Part shown: positions 3,000 through 12,259 of the stretch, piece after piece
Numbering within the stretch: the first letter of the stretch is position 1
Layout of the letters: every line of letters begins with the position of its first letter
Assembly (NCBI GenBank): GCA_013204105.1
Contig: JABMOM010000030.1
Span: forward strand, 1 to 54,717
Direction of reading: 5' to 3'
From: Flavobacteriales bacterium
GTDB taxonomy: Bacteria > Bacteroidota > Bacteroidia > Flavobacteriales_G > Salibacteraceae
Length of the DNA stretch: 54,717 nt
Translations under genes and position numbers: made by a program
The notes under the pieces: model-generated
Seen by the model: the letters and a program-made list of their open reading frames with translations, nothing else
What the model was told of the DNA's origin: nothing
The model's database searches: none

Positions 3000-5900
3000 C
3001 TATTGCCCAACCACAATCTTCTTAGCAACCACGCCTTTGTCATTCTTCACGCGAACGAAATAAACACCTGCAGAAAGGCTGAGGTCTAAATGGTCCAGAT
3101 AGGCATGATGCACGTTGAGTGATTTGGAGTAAACCATTTGTCCACTCATGTCCACAATCTCTAGCTCTTGCTCCCCTTCGAAGCCGATCAGCTCTAAATA
3201 GAACCTGCCGTCGTTCGGGTTCGGGTACACGTTGACCACGCTTTCCGTACCGAGCTCCTCGAGACCCGTGGGCTCGTATACATATCCTTCAACCGACATC
3301 GCGTCTACCGTAAAGGAGAAGTTGATGCTGTGGCCAAATTCGCTTTCGAATACTTTAAAGACTCCGCCTGCATCGTTCCAAAGGCGAACGAATCCAGTAC
3401 CCTGATTTGGCCATGCCCAATAGGAGAGTCCGTCATCCTTCGAGTCTGTGATTTCCATGCGGTAACATCCAGTGTCCAAATCCAGCGTATCCCAATAGGT
3501 CGTATTCGCGTCGAGGTTTATCCCTTTCTTAGAGAATACGAGGTTATCTGCGGCATCGTAAACGTAGATGTCGTTTTCGTTCTTGGACGTGTTGGTCTTG
3601 AATTGAAGAACCACCGCTCCTTCGGTAAAAGGAGGTAATTCAAAGGAAGAGCTGAAGGCATCGTTGTCAGCGTATTCGTCCTGCCCACCATTTGGATTGG
3701 AAACAGTTGCCGTGAAGCGATTCGTCCCATCTCCCAAGTAGAAGCTTCCGTTCTCAAAGGGCAATTCGATCTCTTCTGATTCAAGGAATTCAAGGTAGCC
3801 GTGCCATTCGAAGACGCGCTGATAGCCACCAGCAACCTGGTATGTGATGTCTACACTGGTCAATGGCGTGCTTCCATTGTTTCGGATGACAACGGTTGGA
3901 GCAAAGCAAACAGGATTGGTGCGACCGTAGTACTGTCGATCATTTGGACGAATAACGTCATATACTTCTGCGTCAAGTGCGAAGGATGGTTCTCCATACT
4001 GAAGCACATGCATGGCCACAACGTAGTTGCCATTGCCCATCCCTTGGTTGCTGGAGGGCACTGGCGTTATGCGGTAGTCGAGCTCATAGGTGCTGCCCGA
4101 AACGTCTTCGGTGATGTCAAACATGTTGTCTTTGACCACATCTCCAGGACACCAACCTTCACGGGCACCGGGCCATGTTCCTCCTTGAGGATAAACCGGA
4201 TTCAACGCGCAGTCATGGGTCTGCCAGATGTGCCACTCGGCGGATTTGGAACCATCAACGTAGAGGTAGTGTGTATTGTCCTTCCACTCGCAGCAATGCG
4301 GGTAGTTTCCCGTGTTGCTGTTGTGACCGTGGCCTGTCAATCGTGTCACAACCTTTTGACGCACAGCATCCGGATGGACGGTCACCTCAACCGGTTCCAT
4401 ACGGGAGTCATCGTCGAGGGCGCTGTATCGGACGGAGGCGGAAGCACCCCAAGGTCGATCAAAGGCCACCACCTCTGCGGGCGGTGTTCCAGAAATCATG
4501 ACAAATTTCAAGTCGAGCAGCTCTTGCTGGTTACCGCTGGAAAGGTCGACGGAATCGACGAGCAAGTGCGCGTAGTCGGTGACATCATACATCCAAGTAA
4601 ATCCTTGTGGACCTAGGGTCAAACCAATACCATACGGAGTAATGAATCTGCCGACCTCATAGCGATCCACGACTTCAAAGGGCTCGTAGAAGTAGGTCAA
4701 ATCATTGTTGATTTGAGACTGGGTCGAGCTGTAGTAAGTAGAATCAATGGCATTGCCGTTCACATCATACACATAAGAATGACCCACGCGCGATGGGTAG
4801 GTAGCAGATGTAGCTTGAATAGAGTTTCCAGTCACTGTATATTCTACGATGGAGTACGGAGCAACTTCTATTGTATCACTTACCGTATCTGTCACTGCAG
4901 AAGCAGCATAAGATCCTTGCATAAGCGAAACAGTCGGTACAGTAGTGGTAAGGGTTGGATTCAAGAACAGCGCTTGACCTTCGTGGGCTGAAACGGTTGG
5001 AGCGCCGTGCCAGAAGGCCTCAACACCGCTGGATACAGCATTCTGCAAAGTGTACCCATCATTAAAGTCTAAGTAGAGCAGTAGGTCTGCGTATTGTGGG
5101 TGGGTAGCATCCACTGATTTGTTCATCCAATCTTGGATCTCTTGCTCGGAAAGTTCCTTGGTCCACATCTGAAACTCATCGATCTTACCTGGGTACGGAT
5201 TGCCGTTGAGTCCGCGGCCGATGATCAGGTTTCTGATCTCTCCGAGGGTGCGATTCTTGTCGGTTCCACTCATCCATTGGGTTCCGTTTAGGAAGATCTT
5301 CATCGTACCTGTAGTAGCATTCTTGGTAAAAGCCCAGTGCGTCCATGACCCGCTGAATTGCGCTGCATTCGAAGCCTTGTTGATGCGGTCATATCCCGAT
5401 CCTTCTCCAGCATCCCAGTATACGCTTCCATTGCTCCAAGGAAGGTGCACGTTGAGTACACGTTGTCCAATGTGGTTTGCAGCTTCGAATACAGAGGTGT
5501 TGACCGGTAGAATGTTTTCGTCTCCGTAGCTCCAAAAGCTGATGGTGACCTCATCACCGAAGTCAACCGCACCTAGAGGCACTTCAATGCGACTGTTGTC
5601 TCCAAACGAAGCGTATCCATCGCCGCCATTTGCGTATACGCCGTTGCCCGTTTGGGTTCCGCTTTCTACGACGTTGTTCGTGCCAGCAGCATCATTGGTG
5701 AAGCTGAGTTCTACCAGAATAGAGGAGGTGCCATTCCATTCGAAAGGGGTCGTAAAATTGAGTACTTGCGAGCCGGTAGCCGTGAATAAAGTATTTCGCT
5801 CATAGACCGTCGTGAAGCTCGGATTGGCAAAGGCAGTCAATGAGGTAGATGAAGTGTGTGCTAAGCGAACCGTGAAATGCTGGAGCTCAGATCCCAATTG

Positions 5901-6491
5901 GTCGAGCATCAATTCCATGCGATCAATGGTATCGGCAGCCAATCCACTTGCGGTAAGGTCTGCTTGATCCAAGATGAACTGAAACCTAGATGCGGGTGCG
6001 CTGCTCGGTAAAACCAGGTTGGATGTGCTTGAACCCGAGGTGATAGAGAATGAGGTTTCAGAAAGCACACTGTCGATGACGAGTTGCTGTTGTGCTCGCT
6101 GGTAAACGTTGTGCATAGGGGCATTGTGGTAGTAAGCCGTATCAATGTCCAATCCACCCGCTAAGAAAAAGGGGTGGGTCACTTCCGTAGAGTCGAGTTC
6201 ACCTGTATGGTCGTAGACAAAAGTGTAGGTCAAGTAATCCCACTCGCCACAGGCAAAGTTGTCTTGCGTAGTGGCATTGTCACACTTCAATGTCTTGTAC
6301 ATCAAGATCTTTCGCCACTCTTGGTCTCCAGAAGGAAATTCAAACACATCGCGCCGTTTGGTGATGTCGCTGAATGTGAAGGTTTGAACGATGGTGGTGT
6401 CTTGTGCTTGAGCGGGCTGAATCAAAACAGCCACAAAAAGAAGAACCAGGAGTCGAGCGGTCAAATGCATAGGAGTAAAATTGGAATACAA
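3000..6491 (-). CDS. PNGase F-related secreted protein with LamG insertion and T9SS domain
   Basis: 1163 residues. A signal peptide (1-29, ending QPAQAQ) is followed by a PNGase F N-domain start with CGEWD at 81-85. A long insertion follows, containing a LamG/concanavalin-like domain (~290-460, FGDNSRIEV to GKIDEFQMWT). The N-domain then resumes at ~612 with EVGRFITPYGIG, and the C-domain follows (LTGHG, HCCEW with E735, then NPVYPQGGTW and WCPGD ~765-785). A T9SS sorting domain ends the protein (VYPNPNDGRF ~1087 to the end). In Elizabethkingia PNGase F the catalytic residues are D60 (CDEWD) and E206 (CAEW); both equivalents are present here (D85, E735). The E118 position looks replaced. The enzyme family removes N-glycans from glycoproteins; activity here is inferred. 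It is probably released or held on the cell surface. The LamG part may bind a glycan. Confidence 0.85.
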   Translation of the reverse strand: MYSNFTPMHLTARLLVLLFVAVLIQPAQAQDTTIVQTFTFSDITKRRDVFEFPSGDQEWRKILMYKTLKCDNATTQDNFACGEWDYLTYTFVYDHTGELDSTEVTHPFFLAGGLDIDTAYYHNAPMHNVYQRAQQQLVIDSVLSETSFSITSGSSTSNLVLPSSAPASRFQFILDQADLTASGLAADTIDRMELMLDQLGSELQHFTVRLAHTSSTSLTAFANPSFTTVYERNTLFTATGSQVLNFTTPFEWNGTSSILVELSFTNDAAGTNNVVESGTQTGNGVYANGGDGYASFGDNSRIEVPLGAVDFGDEVTISFWSYGDENILPVNTSVFEAANHIGQRVLNVHLPWSNGSVYWDAGEGSGYDRINKASNAAQFSGSWTHWAFTKNATTGTMKIFLNGTQWMSGTDKNRTLGEIRNLIIGRGLNGNPYPGKIDEFQMWTKELSEQEIQDWMNKSVDATHPQYADLLLYLDFNDGYTLQNAVSSGVEAFWHGAPTVSAHEGQALFLNPTLTTTVPTVSLMQGSYAASAVTDTVSDTIEVAPYSIVEYTVTGNSIQATSATYPSRVGHSYVYDVNGNAIDSTYYSSTQSQINNDLTYFYEPFEVVDRYEVGRFITPYGIGLTLGPQGFTWMYDVTDYAHLLVDSVDLSSGNQQELLDLKFVMISGTPPAEVVAFDRPWGASASVRYSALDDDSRMEPVEVTVHPDAVRQKVVTRLTGHGHNSNTGNYPHCCEWKDNTHYLYVDGSKSAEWHIWQTHDCALNPVYPQGGTWPGAREGWCPGDVVKDNMFDITEDVSGSTYELDYRITPVPSSNQGMGNGNYVVAMHVLQYGEPSFALDAEVYDVIRPNDRQYYGRTNPVCFAPTVVIRNNGSTPLTSVDITYQVAGGYQRVFEWHGYLEFLESEEIELPFENGSFYLGDGTNRFTATVSNPNGGQDEYADNDAFSSSFELPPFTEGAVVLQFKTNTSKNENDIYVYDAADNLVFSKKGINLDANTTYWDTLDLDTGCYRMEITDSKDDGLSYWAWPNQGTGFVRLWNDAGGVFKVFESEFGHSINFSFTVDAMSVEGYVYEPTGLEELGTESVVNVYPNPNDGRFYLELIGFEGEQELEIVDMSGQMVYSKSLNVHHAYLDHLDLSLSAGVYFVRVKNDKGVVAKKIVVGQ

Positions 6492-6559: not shown

Positions 6560-6658
6560 AATTAGCCGGGGTTGGTGATAGAGGTGGTTATTAAGCAAAA
6601 AGCTATTCAAGCACCTTATCCCAAGCCAACGAATTAGGTTTCATTAGTTTTGACTTTG

Positions 6659-8992
6659 ATGACACGGATCGGATTCACTTTGATATTGTTTCTACACTGT
6701 ACCCTTCAATTTGCGCAAGATGTGGAATGGTTCAGAGAACGAGGGGTGGATACAAACCTTTCCTTAAATACATCTCAAGCCACGGGTCGGATTCTTCTTA
6801 ATGATGATGGTAGCTTGATTGCATTAGGCTCTGTATCCGCTCAGTCAAATTCTGTCATCGACCTAGACCCTGGTCCGGATGTTTTCAATTATACACATAC
6901 GGGTCACATAAGTGCAGTCGTACAAAGATTCAGTTCAGAAGCCAATTTGGATTGGACTGGAGTTTTCAGAAGTGGCATTTCAACCTTTATCTATTTCCAA
7001 GGAATAGAGGGTTGTATGAACTACATTGACGATGATGGTAGCATTTATCTTTTTGTCACGAGAAATTCTGGATCAACCACCACGTTGGAGTACTTGTGGA
7101 ATGGGCAACTACAAAGTATCGGTTCGTTTGGTTATTCAGATTCATACCTGATCAAATTGGCTGACGACGGGGAGCTCATTTGGAATGTTCGATTAAATGC
7201 TCAAAATCCGGCACCAAAAAGTTTGTATGTTAAGGATGATAAACTCTATCTGTACGGCGCGGTGACTGGGACCAAAGACTTTGATCCAAGGTCTGGAGTA
7301 TTTACTATATCAATCCCCTCAGGTGTAACCACGAATTACATAACCCAGCTCGATACGTCCGGGGTATTTCAAAATGCAAGGACTTTTTACAATTCTGGAC
7401 AACAATCAGCTACCGTTTTTTCATATGCTTTATCTGTAAACTCGCTACATGAACTGGTCATTGAACTAAGGCTCGTTGGAGGACCCATCGATCTTGATCT
7501 GGGTGCCGGCACCGAGTGGGTTCAATCCCCTGGGGCATACACCACTTATTTGTTGAAACTAGATTCAAATTGGAACTATAGTTGGCATCATGAATGGAAT
7601 TACCCATATTTCGGTCAGGACGGATTAGCCATAACTCAAGTGGCATTTGATCAGAACGACCAAATCATCACCACAGGGTTAATAAGTGGCGACATTTATT
7701 TTAACACTTGGAATTCATCGCACCTAAGTCAGAACCCTCTTCCTCATCAGAACTTATTCGTCGCAAAATTTAGCCCATTGGGAATTCCATCTTGGCACTA
7801 TAGGTCAGCTGCGCATTCTCAAAGCTTTAGTCAGTTGTATACTGAGAGCTTAGGGGTTTCGAAATCAGACGGCAGTATAATTGTGACCGGCCATTACAGA
7901 GGAGATAGTATTGGACTCAATCCATTTGACTCACTCGATCTCTTACCACCCGTCGCCTTTTTCGAAAACGATTTTGGACTCCAGTGTGTTTTACTTGATT
8001 CATCGGGGGAGTATCAACATGGCTTTGGTTTAGCAAATGACTCCGTAGTCAGAGGCACAATTTCTCTGATTCATGACCAAAACACATTTTATCTCCAGTT
8101 GTATGCAAAGCAGATCACAGACATTGATCCGGGTCAAGATGTCGCTTGGATAGGGACTTCAGGTGTTCAATCAGACCATATTTCCTGCACGGTAAAATAT
8201 AACCGTTGTTTATCCGACACTGGACTTATTCAGGATTTCAATTGTGGTAGCTATGTATTTCAAGACACCACTTTTTATGAATCTGGAGTGTTTGAATATG
8301 CTATTCAATTGGAGAATGGTTGTGATTCAATTGTCATAATAGACCTGCAAATTGGAGAAGAGTACTATACTTCTGTAGATACGGTGCTGTGCACTCCAAC
8401 ATTTTTAGGTGTTCAGTTGATAGAAGAAGCGGGTGAGTACACATACTTTGGTACTACGCAAGATGGCTGTGACAGCCACATAGTTTGGAATGTAACCTAC
8501 CCTGAAATTGATTCAGGCATTCAATTTTTCCCTGAACTGCAAAAGCTGAAATCAAAGGAAGATTCCGCTGACCATTATCAATGGTATGCCTGCGATTCTG
8601 CTGGATTGATTCTGCTACCTGGAGATACAAGTCAGGCAATCATCAAGTCAAATGGAGGGTCTTATGCGGTGGTAATAGAAATTGAAGGATGTTCTGATAC
8701 CAGTGCGTGTATAAATATTTTTCCATCGGGTGTTGGAGAAGAAAGCAGGTCAGTGGTCAATCTGTATCCAAATCCAGCAGAAGACATGCTTACGGTCACT
8801 TTGGGCGCCACTTCACATTCCGTTTCGCAGATCAGGATATACAATACCGCTGGGCAGTTGGTGTTAGAAGATTCATTTAGAGGCTCTACAACGGACGTTC
8901 GGGTAAGTGATGTAGCTGCGGGAGTCTACCATCTTGAAGTGCTCTCAGATGGGCTGAATGATGTCTGGCGGACGAAGCTGGTGGTGGAGTAG
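6659..8992 (+). CDS. Large T9SS-sorted secreted protein, beta-propeller-like
   Basis: 777 residues from ATG 6659 (a TTG at 6650 is also in frame, but the ATG gives a clean signal peptide: MTRIGFTLILFLHCTLQFAQ). The body has repeated units containing DLDPGPDVF, DFDPRSGVF, DLDLGAGTEW and DIDPGQDVAW. These resemble the SBBP/delta-60-type repeats of Bacteroidota secreted proteins. Two Cys-containing segments follow around residues 520-620 (FNCGSYVFQDTTFYESG), each with a C-G/C-D pattern. The last ~80 residues are a T9SS sorting domain (LYPNPAEDM, YNTAGQLV, GVYHLEV, WRTKLVV). It probably acts as a surface or secreted adhesin; no enzyme motif is seen. Its C-terminal domain is close to those of the next two genes. 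Confidence 0.85.
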   Translation: MTRIGFTLILFLHCTLQFAQDVEWFRERGVDTNLSLNTSQATGRILLNDDGSLIALGSVSAQSNSVIDLDPGPDVFNYTHTGHISAVVQRFSSEANLDWTGVFRSGISTFIYFQGIEGCMNYIDDDGSIYLFVTRNSGSTTTLEYLWNGQLQSIGSFGYSDSYLIKLADDGELIWNVRLNAQNPAPKSLYVKDDKLYLYGAVTGTKDFDPRSGVFTISIPSGVTTNYITQLDTSGVFQNARTFYNSGQQSATVFSYALSVNSLHELVIELRLVGGPIDLDLGAGTEWVQSPGAYTTYLLKLDSNWNYSWHHEWNYPYFGQDGLAITQVAFDQNDQIITTGLISGDIYFNTWNSSHLSQNPLPHQNLFVAKFSPLGIPSWHYRSAAHSQSFSQLYTESLGVSKSDGSIIVTGHYRGDSIGLNPFDSLDLLPPVAFFENDFGLQCVLLDSSGEYQHGFGLANDSVVRGTISLIHDQNTFYLQLYAKQITDIDPGQDVAWIGTSGVQSDHISCTVKYNRCLSDTGLIQDFNCGSYVFQDTTFYESGVFEYAIQLENGCDSIVIIDLQIGEEYYTSVDTVLCTPTFLGVQLIEEAGEYTYFGTTQDGCDSHIVWNVTYPEIDSGIQFFPELQKLKSKEDSADHYQWYACDSAGLILLPGDTSQAIIKSNGGSYAVVIEIEGCSDTSACINIFPSGVGEESRSVVNLYPNPAEDMLTVTLGATSHSVSQIRIYNTAGQLVLEDSFRGSTTDVRVSDVAAGVYHLEVLSDGLNDVWRTKLVVE

Positions 8993-9106: not shown

Positions 9107-10663
9107 ATGTTAAGATTGTCAAACTTCATCAGTAAGAATCGTGCGTTGGCCTTTTGGCTCATACAAGCGCTTTTAGTTTCACTAACCATAGAGGCTCAAA
9201 CGCCGTATCTGCAGGAACGGCTATGTGGACCAGGGAATGGTAAGGAATATGTTTATTCAATTGATGAAGTTGGAAGTAATATCAGGATCACATCCGGTAC
9301 TCGCAGAATATCAGGGGGGGCATACGCATTATGCAGCATACTAATAAAGCCTGACGGCGAAATTCTCTCAAAAGATGAGATATTCTATGATTCAGTGGGT
9401 GTTACATGTGGATATAGAGACCCATCAATACATTTAGGAGATTCAATTGTGCTTGCCGGAGCTTTGAAATGGAATCAAGATAGTGTGCTTCCTGCAATCA
9501 TAGGAGTTGATCTCACTGGAAAGATTGCTACTCCAAGACTCATAAACGAAGGCTTCCAGTTTGGTGAGTTCTATGATGGCGTTGAAACAGGTGACGGAGG
9601 GATGATGCTCTTTGGAACGGTGACAACCGATACTGGATATGTTGATTTTCTAGCAGTTAGAGTTAATGCAGATGGAGAAGTTCAGTGGATGAAAACTTAT
9701 GGAACCACTACTTGGGATCAGGGGCTAGCCATATGCAAAGGCCCTGATGGTGGGTTTTTTCTTGGAGGAGAGACCAGAGGATATGGAAACGGAGCAGATT
9801 ATAACATCCTCATCATTCGAGTAGATTCGAACGGCAAAGAGATTTGGCGGGGAGATTGGGGGGGGTACTACAGCGATTGGTTCGGTAATTTGGAGTATAA
9901 CCCAAATGTAGGCTTGCTCTTTACTGGAACAAAAGCCAGAGAGCAAGGAGGAAGTCTCGGACCGGGTGCATACGTTATGCTCCTCGATGAGGACGGCGAG
10001 ATTATTTGGGATCAGTTTCTTACAGATTCGTATGGGGATACTTCATCCTTCAGTTCCTTTAGGGTCGGCCGATTCCTTGAAAATGGTACGATAATGGTTG
10101 CTGGTAGAGGCGAAAGATTCGATATTTTCTCTTCTGAAAGTAAGCCTGCGGCCATGATTCTTGACTATCAAGGGAACGTACTGATGAAGCGGATTTACAC
10201 ATCCTTTGTAAAGGAAGAGAGTATCGCATGGTTCGAAGATCTTGAGCAATTAAATGATGGTAGAATTATTGCTACAGGCGTTTACATTCCCGATAATTCG
10301 AACGCTCAAGACACAGGAAATCAAGATATATTGATTGTAGAGCTTGATGAAAATGGTTGTGAGTATCCGGGGTGCCAGCCACCTCTCGGTCAGGAGAATA
10401 TAAAAGCGACGCCGTCTATTTCAGATTGGAAGGTTTTTCCTAATCCAGCAATGGACGTGATCACATTATCCTGCGGTCTGGTCTCAAATGGCCTCACCGA
10501 GGTCAGAATGTACAATACTGCGGGTCAGCAGGTTCTTCAACAATCATTTTCGGGAACCAACGTTGACGTTCGAGTAGCCTACTTAGCAACGGGAGTATAC
10601 TTCCTTGAAATAAGCTCAGTGGAGCGCGATGAAGTCTGGAGGACTAAGCTGGTGGTCAGGTAA
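9107..10663 (+). CDS. T9SS-sorted secreted protein, tandem paralogue 1
   Basis: 518 residues. The N-terminus is basic with a hydrophobic run ending in SLTIEAQTPYLQ, fitting a signal peptide. The body has repeated units of the form GDGGMMLFGTVTTDTGYVD, GPDGGFFLGGET and LNDGRIIATGVYIPD, suggesting a beta-propeller-like fold with about six to seven blades. It ends in a T9SS sorting domain (VFPNPAMDV, MYNTAGQQV, GVYFLEI, WRTKLVVR). It is clearly paralogous to the following gene along its full length (shared WMKTYGT, GGYY.DW, DTGNQDILIVELDENGCEYP). No catalytic motif is visible. The substrate or adhesion target is unknown. Confidence 0.85.
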   Translation: MLRLSNFISKNRALAFWLIQALLVSLTIEAQTPYLQERLCGPGNGKEYVYSIDEVGSNIRITSGTRRISGGAYALCSILIKPDGEILSKDEIFYDSVGVTCGYRDPSIHLGDSIVLAGALKWNQDSVLPAIIGVDLTGKIATPRLINEGFQFGEFYDGVETGDGGMMLFGTVTTDTGYVDFLAVRVNADGEVQWMKTYGTTTWDQGLAICKGPDGGFFLGGETRGYGNGADYNILIIRVDSNGKEIWRGDWGGYYSDWFGNLEYNPNVGLLFTGTKAREQGGSLGPGAYVMLLDEDGEIIWDQFLTDSYGDTSSFSSFRVGRFLENGTIMVAGRGERFDIFSSESKPAAMILDYQGNVLMKRIYTSFVKEESIAWFEDLEQLNDGRIIATGVYIPDNSNAQDTGNQDILIVELDENGCEYPGCQPPLGQENIKATPSISDWKVFPNPAMDVITLSCGLVSNGLTEVRMYNTAGQQVLQQSFSGTNVDVRVAYLATGVYFLEISSVERDEVWRTKLVVR

Positions 10664-10690: not shown

Positions 10691-12259
10691 ATGCATGCTA
10701 TGTTAAGTTTCTCAAGCTTTAATAGAAAAGGAGTTGCAATGCTCTTCTTGTGCAGTTGCATGTTGTCTTGCACGACGAAGGTAATAGCCCAGCAACCCTA
10801 TCTATTTAAACGTCTCAGTGATCCGGTTGATGGATTCGAGTATCCTTATTCCATTGATGAGGTCAATGGAAATATACTGGTGACTGCAGGATCCTATCCT
10901 CCTTCATCTAACTCTTACGCCGTTTGCAGTTTCGTTCTTAATCCGGTTGGCGATGTATTGTTCAAGGATTATTTAGCCTATGATTCGGTATCTGTATTCA
11001 GCGGTTATCGTGGTTCATCAATAGTGATCGATGATTCAATCTTTCTCACGGGTGGTCTACAATGGAACCAGGACAGTATATTACCCGGGGTCATTGGAGT
11101 GAGTCTTTCTGGTAATATCGGAATTCCCAGGCTTATTGACGGTGGTGTCGATTTTGGAGGGTTTAATGACGGAGTTGCAACGGATGATGGAGGAATGCTA
11201 CTCTTCGGAATAGCTAAAACTGATACTGGATATGTTGATTATCTTGCTGTAAGGGTCAACGCAGAGGGAGAGATTCAGTGGATGAAAACCTACGGCACTG
11301 ACTGGTGGGATAGAGGTTATTCAGTTTGTCATGGGCCAGACGGTGGATTCTTTTTAGGCGGTGTATCAAAAGGTGTTGGACACGTAGGCAGAAATCACAT
11401 CTTCATTATTCGAATTGACTCTACTGGAAAAGAGATTTGGAGAGGTGATTGGGGAGGGTATTATGATGATTGGTTGGCTAATATGGAGTATAATCCTGAA
11501 GTAGGCTTGTTAGTTGTTGGGTCGAGGTCTCCAGAACAAGGTGGGCCGGGGCTTCAAGAAGGAGCCTATGCAATGCTTTTGAATGACTATGGCGATTTGT
11601 TATGGGACGTTTTTTACAACGAAGTTGTTGGAGACACAGTCTCCATGGATGCGTTTTTTTCGGCGGAGTTTATCGGTGAAGACAGGGTTTTAATAGTGGG
11701 GCAAGGATACAAGGTAATAGACCTAATGCCATATAGTATTCCGCATGCAGTGATTTTAGATAAGTATGGTAATGAACTCATGAAGAGGCACTACACTTCT
11801 ATCCCAGCAACTTACAGTCATGCATGGTTCGAAGACGTTATCCAGCTAGACGATGGTAGAATTTTCGTAAGCGGCATTTATCTCCCCGACACCACAAACG
11901 CTCAAGACACGGGCAACCAAGACATCTTGATCGTAGAGCTTGATGAAAATGGTTGTGAATATCCGGGCTGTCAACCACCGCTGGGACGAGAGGAAGTGAA
12001 AGCGACACAAGCTGAAGCAGGCTGGAAGGTTTATCCAAATCCAGCTAAGGACGTGTTCACTTTATCCTGCGGTCATGTCTCACATGGCCTCACCAATGTC
12101 AGAATATACAATACGGCGGGTCAGCAGGTTCTTCAACAATCGTTTTCAGGAAGCAACGTTGACGTTCGAGTGACCGACTTAGCAACAGGAGTATATATCC
12201 TTGAACTACGCTCAGAGGGGCTGAATGATGTCTGGCGGACAAAGCTGGTGGTGCGATAG
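10691..12259 (+). CDS. T9SS-sorted secreted protein, tandem paralogue 2
   Basis: 522 residues, starting 27 bp after the previous stop. An ATG at 10700 (three codons in) is an alternative start. The hydrophobic N-terminus (VAMLFLCSCMLSCTTKVIAQQ) could be read as a type I signal cut after IAQ or as a lipoprotein signal at LSCT; the C-terminal T9SS domain favours the first. The body repeats mirror the preceding gene (DDGGMLLFGIAKTDTGYVDY, GPDGGFFLGGVSKG, DDGRIFVSGIYLPD). The sorting domain is VYPNPAKDV, IYNTAGQQV, GVYILEL, WRTKLVVR. The gene pair looks like a fairly old tandem duplication with a more conserved 3' end. Confidence 0.85.
   Translation: MHAMLSFSSFNRKGVAMLFLCSCMLSCTTKVIAQQPYLFKRLSDPVDGFEYPYSIDEVNGNILVTAGSYPPSSNSYAVCSFVLNPVGDVLFKDYLAYDSVSVFSGYRGSSIVIDDSIFLTGGLQWNQDSILPGVIGVSLSGNIGIPRLIDGGVDFGGFNDGVATDDGGMLLFGIAKTDTGYVDYLAVRVNAEGEIQWMKTYGTDWWDRGYSVCHGPDGGFFLGGVSKGVGHVGRNHIFIIRIDSTGKEIWRGDWGGYYDDWLANMEYNPEVGLLVVGSRSPEQGGPGLQEGAYAMLLNDYGDLLWDVFYNEVVGDTVSMDAFFSAEFIGEDRVLIVGQGYKVIDLMPYSIPHAVILDKYGNELMKRHYTSIPATYSHAWFEDVIQLDDGRIFVSGIYLPDTTNAQDTGNQDILIVELDENGCEYPGCQPPLGREEVKATQAEAGWKVYPNPAKDVFTLSCGHVSHGLTNVRIYNTAGQQVLQQSFSGSNVDVRVTDLATGVYILELRSEGLNDVWRTKLVVR

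Follow-up and report, generated by a model that had tools for sequence, protein, structure and literature searches.

Can a PNGase F domain whose two signature motifs lie more than 500 residues apart still form one catalytic fold, and is the protein that carries it an enzyme or a sugar-binding protein? The question is raised by an open reading frame at positions 3000-6491 of the reverse strand of contig JABMOM010000030.1 (54,717 nucleotides, analysed at its full length and called the window below) from a Flavobacteriales bacterium of the Salibacteraceae (assembly GCA_013204105.1). PNGase F is a widely used glycobiology reagent. The gene probably encodes a PNGase F-superfamily member of a new architecture, secreted by the type IX secretion system (T9SS) and predicted to be catalytically competent.

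Reading frame and sequence homology

From a TTG start the frame runs without a stop for 1163 codons, and the ATG at 6470, where a signal-peptide-like stretch opens, is the more likely start and would give a protein of 1156 residues. Residues are numbered from this ATG (the TTG-based numbers of a preliminary description of the locus are higher by 7). The motifs CGEWDY (74-79) and EVGRFITP (605-612) are spaced by 531 residues, in agreement with the separation of over 500 residues claimed earlier; CGEWD at 81-85, EVGRFITP at ~612 and Glu 735 (of CCEW) are all present in the TTG numbering. A Pfam search, also in TTG numbering, finds LamG_3 (PF13385) at 297-453 (3.6e-16), N-glycanase_C (PF09113) at 689-823 (5.7e-12, 46.1 bits against a cut-off of 25) and a T9SS sorting tail (PF18962) at 1088-1161 (2e-17; TIGR04183, 2.2e-18). 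Both features of a T9SS cargo are thus present, the C-terminal sorting domain and the signal peptide (the latter by inspection).

A phmmer search of the PDB matched PNGase F at 3e-15, and a profile of 76 relatives matches PNGase F at 3.3e-34 and zebrafish Ngly2 at 1.8e-12. The CGEWD motif is collinear with CDEWD of the same PNGase F chain, in a separate stretch that is weak taken by itself (12 bits, i-Evalue 0.25). The PF09112 (N-glycanase_N) profile has no match in the protein or in its own genome, and the same profile matched no control genome. The N-terminal PNGase domain is nevertheless present, as judged by the structure match given below and by the collinear alignment.

Predicted structure

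The AlphaFold2 model, built with the alignment of the 76 relatives (rows chosen by hand from 90 frames, with partial and near-duplicate frames excluded), has a predicted local distance difference test score (pLDDT) of 90.9 and a predicted template modelling score of 0.68. The superposition on PNGase F that the preliminary description had proposed matches nearly all of that enzyme across the split: model residues 1-804 superpose on residues 5-304 with Z of 26.3, a root-mean-square deviation of 3.0, 282 of 314 residues aligned and 24% identity. Zebrafish Ngly2, an enzyme of experimentally established activity (Z 25.1), PNGF-II (22.7-23.1), the Phocaeicola massiliensis enzyme (22.8) and the B. 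fragilis PNGase (22.1) follow. For model residues 260-481 the matches are PAPP-A, pentraxins and BACOVA_03559 (Z 20-23).

In the model the protein has the double jelly-roll fold of the PNGase F superfamily. The catalytic fold is split in sequence and not in structure, because the superposition spans the split and the LamG region finds its matches separately; the LamG region is modelled as an independent pentraxin-like domain, with the PNGase fold left whole. The LamG/concanavalin-like domain that had been placed within the insertion is found both by PF13385 and by matches to pentraxin-type folds. The earlier picture of a PNGase domain split by a LamG insertion of ~530 residues stands for the sequence, with the refinement that the insert is nested, the PNGase fold whole and LamG a domain of its own.

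Nested insertion

Relatives were sorted by the spacing of the two motifs. Of 132 gathered, 126 have both motifs by regular expression and fall into four separate groups: short forms (19-30 residues, 24 sequences), small forms (44-52, 4), middle forms (130-132, 16) and long forms (519-546, 82; class limits 500-560), with no relative between 132 and 519 residues. The count of 82 is not a frequency, the long forms having been fetched with a long-form query. Six relatives were set aside (L002, L003, L016, L019, L021 and L059, of which L019, L021 and L059 are cut frames). The length classes hold 69 of 80 relatives from named genomes, L059, L063, L094, L095, L100, L109, L110, L111, L112, L115 and L130 being out.

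The insert is itself nested: a jelly-roll module and the LamG domain lie in a turn of a host module of ~110 residues, which in other relatives occupies the same hairpin without interruption. This was tested with a profile of the ~131-residue form from which the PNGase flanks had been removed (two pieces counted at E < 0.01 each). Two end pieces were found in 35 of the 82 long inserts and one piece in 21, while 26 stayed below the threshold; the window's own protein gives both pieces, at 3.3e-4 and 1.5e-5. The host module is broken at profile position ~42-45 of 112, and 367-444 residues lie between the pieces. The same profile has no match in the 24 short forms, the 4 small forms or 82 shuffled sequences. 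With the flanks retained, two pieces are found in 82 of 82, a test in which the PNGase strands help.

The model of L027, a middle form with the uninterrupted host module (pLDDT 88.7), superposes on PNGase F at Z of 29.8 and shows adjacent strands 113-118 and 123-128 joined by a turn of four residues. Their counterparts by alignment in the long model are longer (97-119 and 491-512, model numbering) and flank the jelly-roll and LamG. The insertion begins in the hairpin just after WDY, and its jelly-roll and LamG are carried on the extended hairpin of the host module. The nested jelly-roll (~120 residues) receives no Pfam name in the Pfam search of the window protein; it is also found in other large frames of same-genus genomes, away from the PNGase locus (G384 contig 2 near 40124 and G286 contig 15 near 107371).

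Active site and conservation

The residues W77, D78, Y79, E650, H714, E728, W766, R770 and W773 are unvarying among the 82 long forms. For D78 and W773 these figures are partly circular, since an Asp in CxxWD was a condition of the regular expression and residues of the W-x-P/A-G type were required by the frame filter. Conservation was therefore rechecked, with no motif filter, in all 80 named loci, which are the best 80 of at least 492 and had originally been found via peptide patterns including the RxxWCPG region or the jelly-roll motif. All 79 loci that extend to D78 have it (L059 is cut), while H714 and E728 are present in 80/80 and E650 in 79/80. The catalytic Asp and Glu equivalents of the preliminary description are thus kept. 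According to the cited passages of PMC12753239, changing the equivalent Asp or Glu to alanine abolishes all activity of Ngly2 (literature statements here and below likewise refer to the passages cited). Residues that contact chitobiose in relatives are kept as W77, D78, H714 and E728; His at the place of PNGase F W191 is described as the usual state of the superfamily, with a His contact (PMC12381499).

The position of PNGase F E118, assigned by sequence alignment, was rightly described as replaced: among the 82 long forms it is Gly in 59, His in 21, and Tyr and Ala in one each, and Glu in none. In the window protein it is Gly646, the residue of type II enzymes, and not the Glu or Asp of type I. 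The N-terminal bowl-like domain of type II is absent, the PNGase fold starting directly after the signal peptide; one published type II-like sequence is described as lacking it as well (PMC9522356). Gly at this place in active type II PNGases admits core α1,3-fucose, and another Glu takes over (PMC9522356). E650, four residues past Gly646, is the candidate stand-in for E118 in the window protein. The short hairpin of GN-x-QE type to which both residues belong accompanies a tree clade of 34 rows described below, including its middle and small forms, and its first residues vary in some long forms.

The largest share of near-invariant columns (conserved at ≥95%) is in the PNGase parts, with 11 of 66 and 32 of 230, compared with 12 of 115 and 11 of 105 in the C-terminal beta region, 3 of 225 in LamG and 0 of 137 in the nested jelly-roll.

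Proposed mechanism

In the model, the halves of the N-terminal jelly-roll would reassemble around the insertion, and D78 and E728 would become the catalytic pair, predicted to cleave the GlcNAc-Asn amide. The superposition of the whole fold on PNGase F bears indirectly on the condition set in the preliminary description, that these two residues face each other in one cleft. With Gly646 the side chain of E118 is lost, which would make room in the pocket near C3 of the core GlcNAc; core α1,3-fucosylated glycans (plant, algal, invertebrate) and high-mannose glycans should then be tolerated; E650 may assume the polar role of E118. The inserted jelly-roll and LamG probably keep the glycoprotein or surface near the active site. 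On the best reading, a LamG arm for engaging the substrate or surface and a relaxed core-fucose specificity are predictions.

Comparison with known PNGases

With PNGase F of Elizabethkingia (type I, 1PNF) the window protein shares the double jelly-roll fold, the catalytic Asp and Glu and the GWCPG region. PNGase F has a short hairpin where the window protein has 531 residues, and E118 and W191 where it has Gly646 and H714; LamG, the nested jelly-roll, the C-terminal domains and the T9SS tail are additions. The type II enzymes PNGF-II (4R4X) and Phocaeicola (Bacteroides) massiliensis PNGase (7ZGN) share the fold and the Gly at the E118 position (PMC9522356), but their accessory bowl-like domain is N-terminal whereas the accessory unit here is inserted, and their compensating Glu is described elsewhere in the protein (PMC9522356), unlike E650. 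The zebrafish acid PNGase Ngly2 (9LWG) shares the fold, the catalytic pair and the GHG His, and also has an accessory domain above the active site (PMC12753239); it is lysosomal, its PA and thioredoxin-like accessory domains are N-terminal, and it has WDH instead of WDY.

PNGaseL and PNGaseDo, compared by description only, resemble the window protein in their T9SS tails, accessory beta modules and open space under the chitobiose; their modules are described at the N- or C-terminus, and the cited passages describe no insertion into the catalytic fold (PMC12381499). The B. fragilis PNGase (3KS7) shares the fold and shows that the family tolerates insertions, although its insert of ~60 residues after strand F' is a hairpin and not a domain (PMC8812541). 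A search of the open-licence PMC literature gave no description of a PNGase with a LamG or domain-in-domain insertion architecture. On this search the architecture appears to be new; the PNGase F enzyme superfamily to which the protein belongs is already known.

Distribution and history

PF09113 matches are found in 203 of 395 Bacteroidia genomes sampled, and the long-form profile finds the long form in at least 101 of them, about a quarter. The figure of 101 is a hand count of full-length matches and of contig-edge fragments with part of the LamG region; it excludes one ambiguous frame (G132), and the copy in G173 is broken by a stop. In-frame stops interrupt two long-form genes (L130 and the copy on contig 19 of G173), which are possibly decaying copies or assembly errors. 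One genome (G051) holds both a long and a short form.

The scan of named genomes gave at least 492 relatives. The majority of the best 80 cover the query in full, and the nearest of them is a full-length copy, 96% identical, in another metagenome-assembled genome (MAG). Titles among the best 80 include Flavobacteriales, Crocinitomicaceae, Saprospiraceae, Chitinophagales, Kapaibacterium, Chlorobiota, Ignavibacteriae and others; nearly all are MAGs whose labels may err, and the titles Polynucleobacter and Chryseobacterium gleum look doubtful. The clade that has the long form as a stable trait extends across the Bacteroidota and includes MAGs labelled Chlorobiota and Ignavibacteriae. This architecture turns up in many environmental Bacteroidota and is therefore probably a functioning enzyme type, with activity predicted, and not an aberration.

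Thirty of the 82 long forms were placed in a tree built by a quick method from the PNGase core alone, with the insert removed and PNGase F taken as outgroup (75 rows). It has a clade of 34 rows with 30 long, 2 middle and 2 small forms (Shimodaira-Hasegawa-like approximate likelihood ratio test, 99.9) and a sister clade with 14 middle, 17 short and 2 small forms (support 83). The two middle forms inside the 34-row clade have the host module only and the two small forms there have ~50 residues, so the nested unit was likely lost within this clade; a strict clade of all long forms is not rejected (approximately unbiased test, p 0.379). For the first step, a gain from the host-module form is the simpler reading, given the short hairpin of PNGase F. 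The simplest history, in an order that we infer, runs from a short hairpin (as in PNGase F) to the host module in both clades and the nested unit in one, with later losses; alternatively, the history may have been one of losses only. A divergent group of PF09113 proteins of ~450 residues (L013, L014, L015 and L020), has CDNYDR in place of CxxWDY and, in the core tree, a very long branch (4.7).

Genomic setting

The source genome has one gene of glycoside hydrolase (GH) family 92 (L153; G000 contig 7, 8401-11202, reverse strand), with a lipoprotein-like (lipobox-like) start and near an M3 peptidase gene, and it is a possible partner for the released glycans. The family includes N-glycan mannosidases (PMC9522356). 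Among the 101 long-form genomes 77 have GH92, compared with 138 of the other 294 (P 2.6e-7, kinship not corrected); by genus, in a table counted by hand that is the sole correction for kinship, the figures are 35 of 50 and 69 of 146 (P 0.008). The association weakly favours mannose-rich N-glycans as food.

Weighing of the alternatives

Several observations weigh against a secreted N-glycan deglycosylase. There is no conserved neighbourhood within ~5 kb, the largest neighbour cluster covering 9 of 78 loci. GH20, GH29, GH18 and GH130 have no match in the source genome (96% complete), and therefore no full N-glycan pathway is evident. GH92 is lacking in 24 of the 101 long-form genomes, and among genomes with other PNGase forms only its frequency (45/84 against 93/210, P 0.16) is not significantly raised. 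L130 has Asp for E650, and a nearby stop interrupts its frame. LamG is less conserved than the catalytic part, and its ligand may therefore vary. A secreted N-glycan-binding lectin or adhesin, with the sugar site retained, hydrolysis lost, and LamG and jelly-roll adhesive, would agree with the lack of a conserved neighbourhood, with the replaced E118 and with the adhesin-type nature of LamG and of the nested jelly-roll (found also in other frames of related genomes). We consider it improbable: the catalytic Asp and Glu are kept in every named relative that reaches them, within the most near-invariant part of the protein, and active type II enzymes also have Gly for E118 (PMC9522356). A pure binding protein is disfavoured because D78, H714, E728 and, in all relatives except one, E650 are kept. 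Of the two proposals made in the preliminary description, a deglycosylase of changed specificity or a binding protein, the former thus gains ground, the specificity being probably changed.

An active amidase of the same fold might instead have a bacterial, archaeal or algal glycoprotein linkage as its natural substrate, possibly in the cell's own surface proteins. The wide occurrence among environmental Bacteroidota, with MAGs labelled Chlorobiota and Ignavibacteriae as well, the altered E118/E650 region and the lack of a match in the source genome for four of the five N-glycan-related glycosidase families sought all speak for such a substrate, whereas the retained chitobiose-contact residues and the tendency of GH92 to co-occur speak against it, and we give it a small chance. 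That the gene is chimeric or mis-assembled and peculiar to its source genome has nothing more than its unusual length in its favour; the 96% identical full-length copy and the many full-length relatives in other genomes refute this, and its probability is negligible. The secreted PNGase F-superfamily enzyme thus remains the likely explanation. A more far-reaching version is offered tentatively and is, in our opinion, rather doubtful in its entirety. In it the long form would be a third, widespread type of the superfamily with two defining features, the GN-x-QE hairpin (position 118 open, E650 nearly invariant) and a domain-in-domain insertion made in two steps. Its pentraxin-like LamG would lie beside the active site as an arm that captures or gates the substrate, and the enzyme would act on core α1,3-fucosylated glycoproteins that are intact, natively folded or bound to a surface.

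Feature map and neighbouring genes

The features of the gene are collected in Table 1. The C-terminal beta region probably consists of two domains, as seen in the model.

Table 1. Features of the long-form gene in window coordinates.
Feature	Position	Strand	Basis
Long-form PNGase F-like gene, ATG start, 1156 aa	3000..6470	-	
Signal peptide, residues 1-23	6402..6470	-	Sequence inspection alone
PNGase N-terminal jelly roll, first part, residues 24-89	6204..6401	-	Collinear alignment with PNGase F
W77-D78-Y79; D78 is the predicted catalytic Asp (PNGase F D60, zebrafish Ngly2 D421)	6234..6242	-	Conservation
Host module (~110 residues), first part, residues 90-141 (approximate boundary)	6048..6203	-	Uninterrupted-module profile
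Nested jelly-roll module, residues 142-278 (approximate boundary)	5637..6047	-	Sequence and model; recurs in related genomes in other frames
Nested LamG/pentraxin-like domain, residues 279-503	4962..5636	-	PF13385 and structure matches
Host module, second part, residues 504-597 (approximate boundary)	4680..4961	-	Uninterrupted-module profile, L027 model
Remainder of PNGase fold, residues 598-833, containing PF09113	3972..4679	-	Pfam, profile, superposition
G646-N-Q-Q-E650: Gly where PNGase F has E118, and a nearly invariant Glu 4 residues later	4521..4535	-	Alignment
H714 (GHG motif), equivalent in position to PNGase F W191	4329..4331	-	80/80 relatives
E728, predicted catalytic Glu (PNGase F E206, Ngly2 E555)	4287..4289	-	80/80 relatives
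C-terminal beta region, residues 834-1075	3246..3971	-	DSSP of model
Type IX secretion sorting tail, residues 1081-1154	3009..3230	-	PF18962, TIGR04183

Two tandem T9SS-tailed proteins are encoded on the forward strand of the window (9107-10663 and 10691-12259); they are 59% identical across 519 aligned residues, a gene duplication. Two further T9SS-tailed proteins (31-861 and 6650-8992, forward strand) lie close to the PNGase gene, in a cluster of T9SS cargo genes.

Significance

The accessory domains described for PNGases in the cited passages flank the catalytic fold or are small hairpins (PMC12381499, PMC9522356, PMC12753239, PMC8812541). The long-form clade, found in at least 101 of the 395 Bacteroidia genomes, carries a lectin-like domain within the catalytic fold, and its living relatives show the host module uninterrupted. 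The long form and the host-module relatives together are a testable case of stepwise nested domain insertion. They also provide a large pool of secreted candidate deglycosylases, which may accept core α1,3-fucose and native substrates and would be relevant to the turnover of algal and plant glycoproteins and to reagent discovery.

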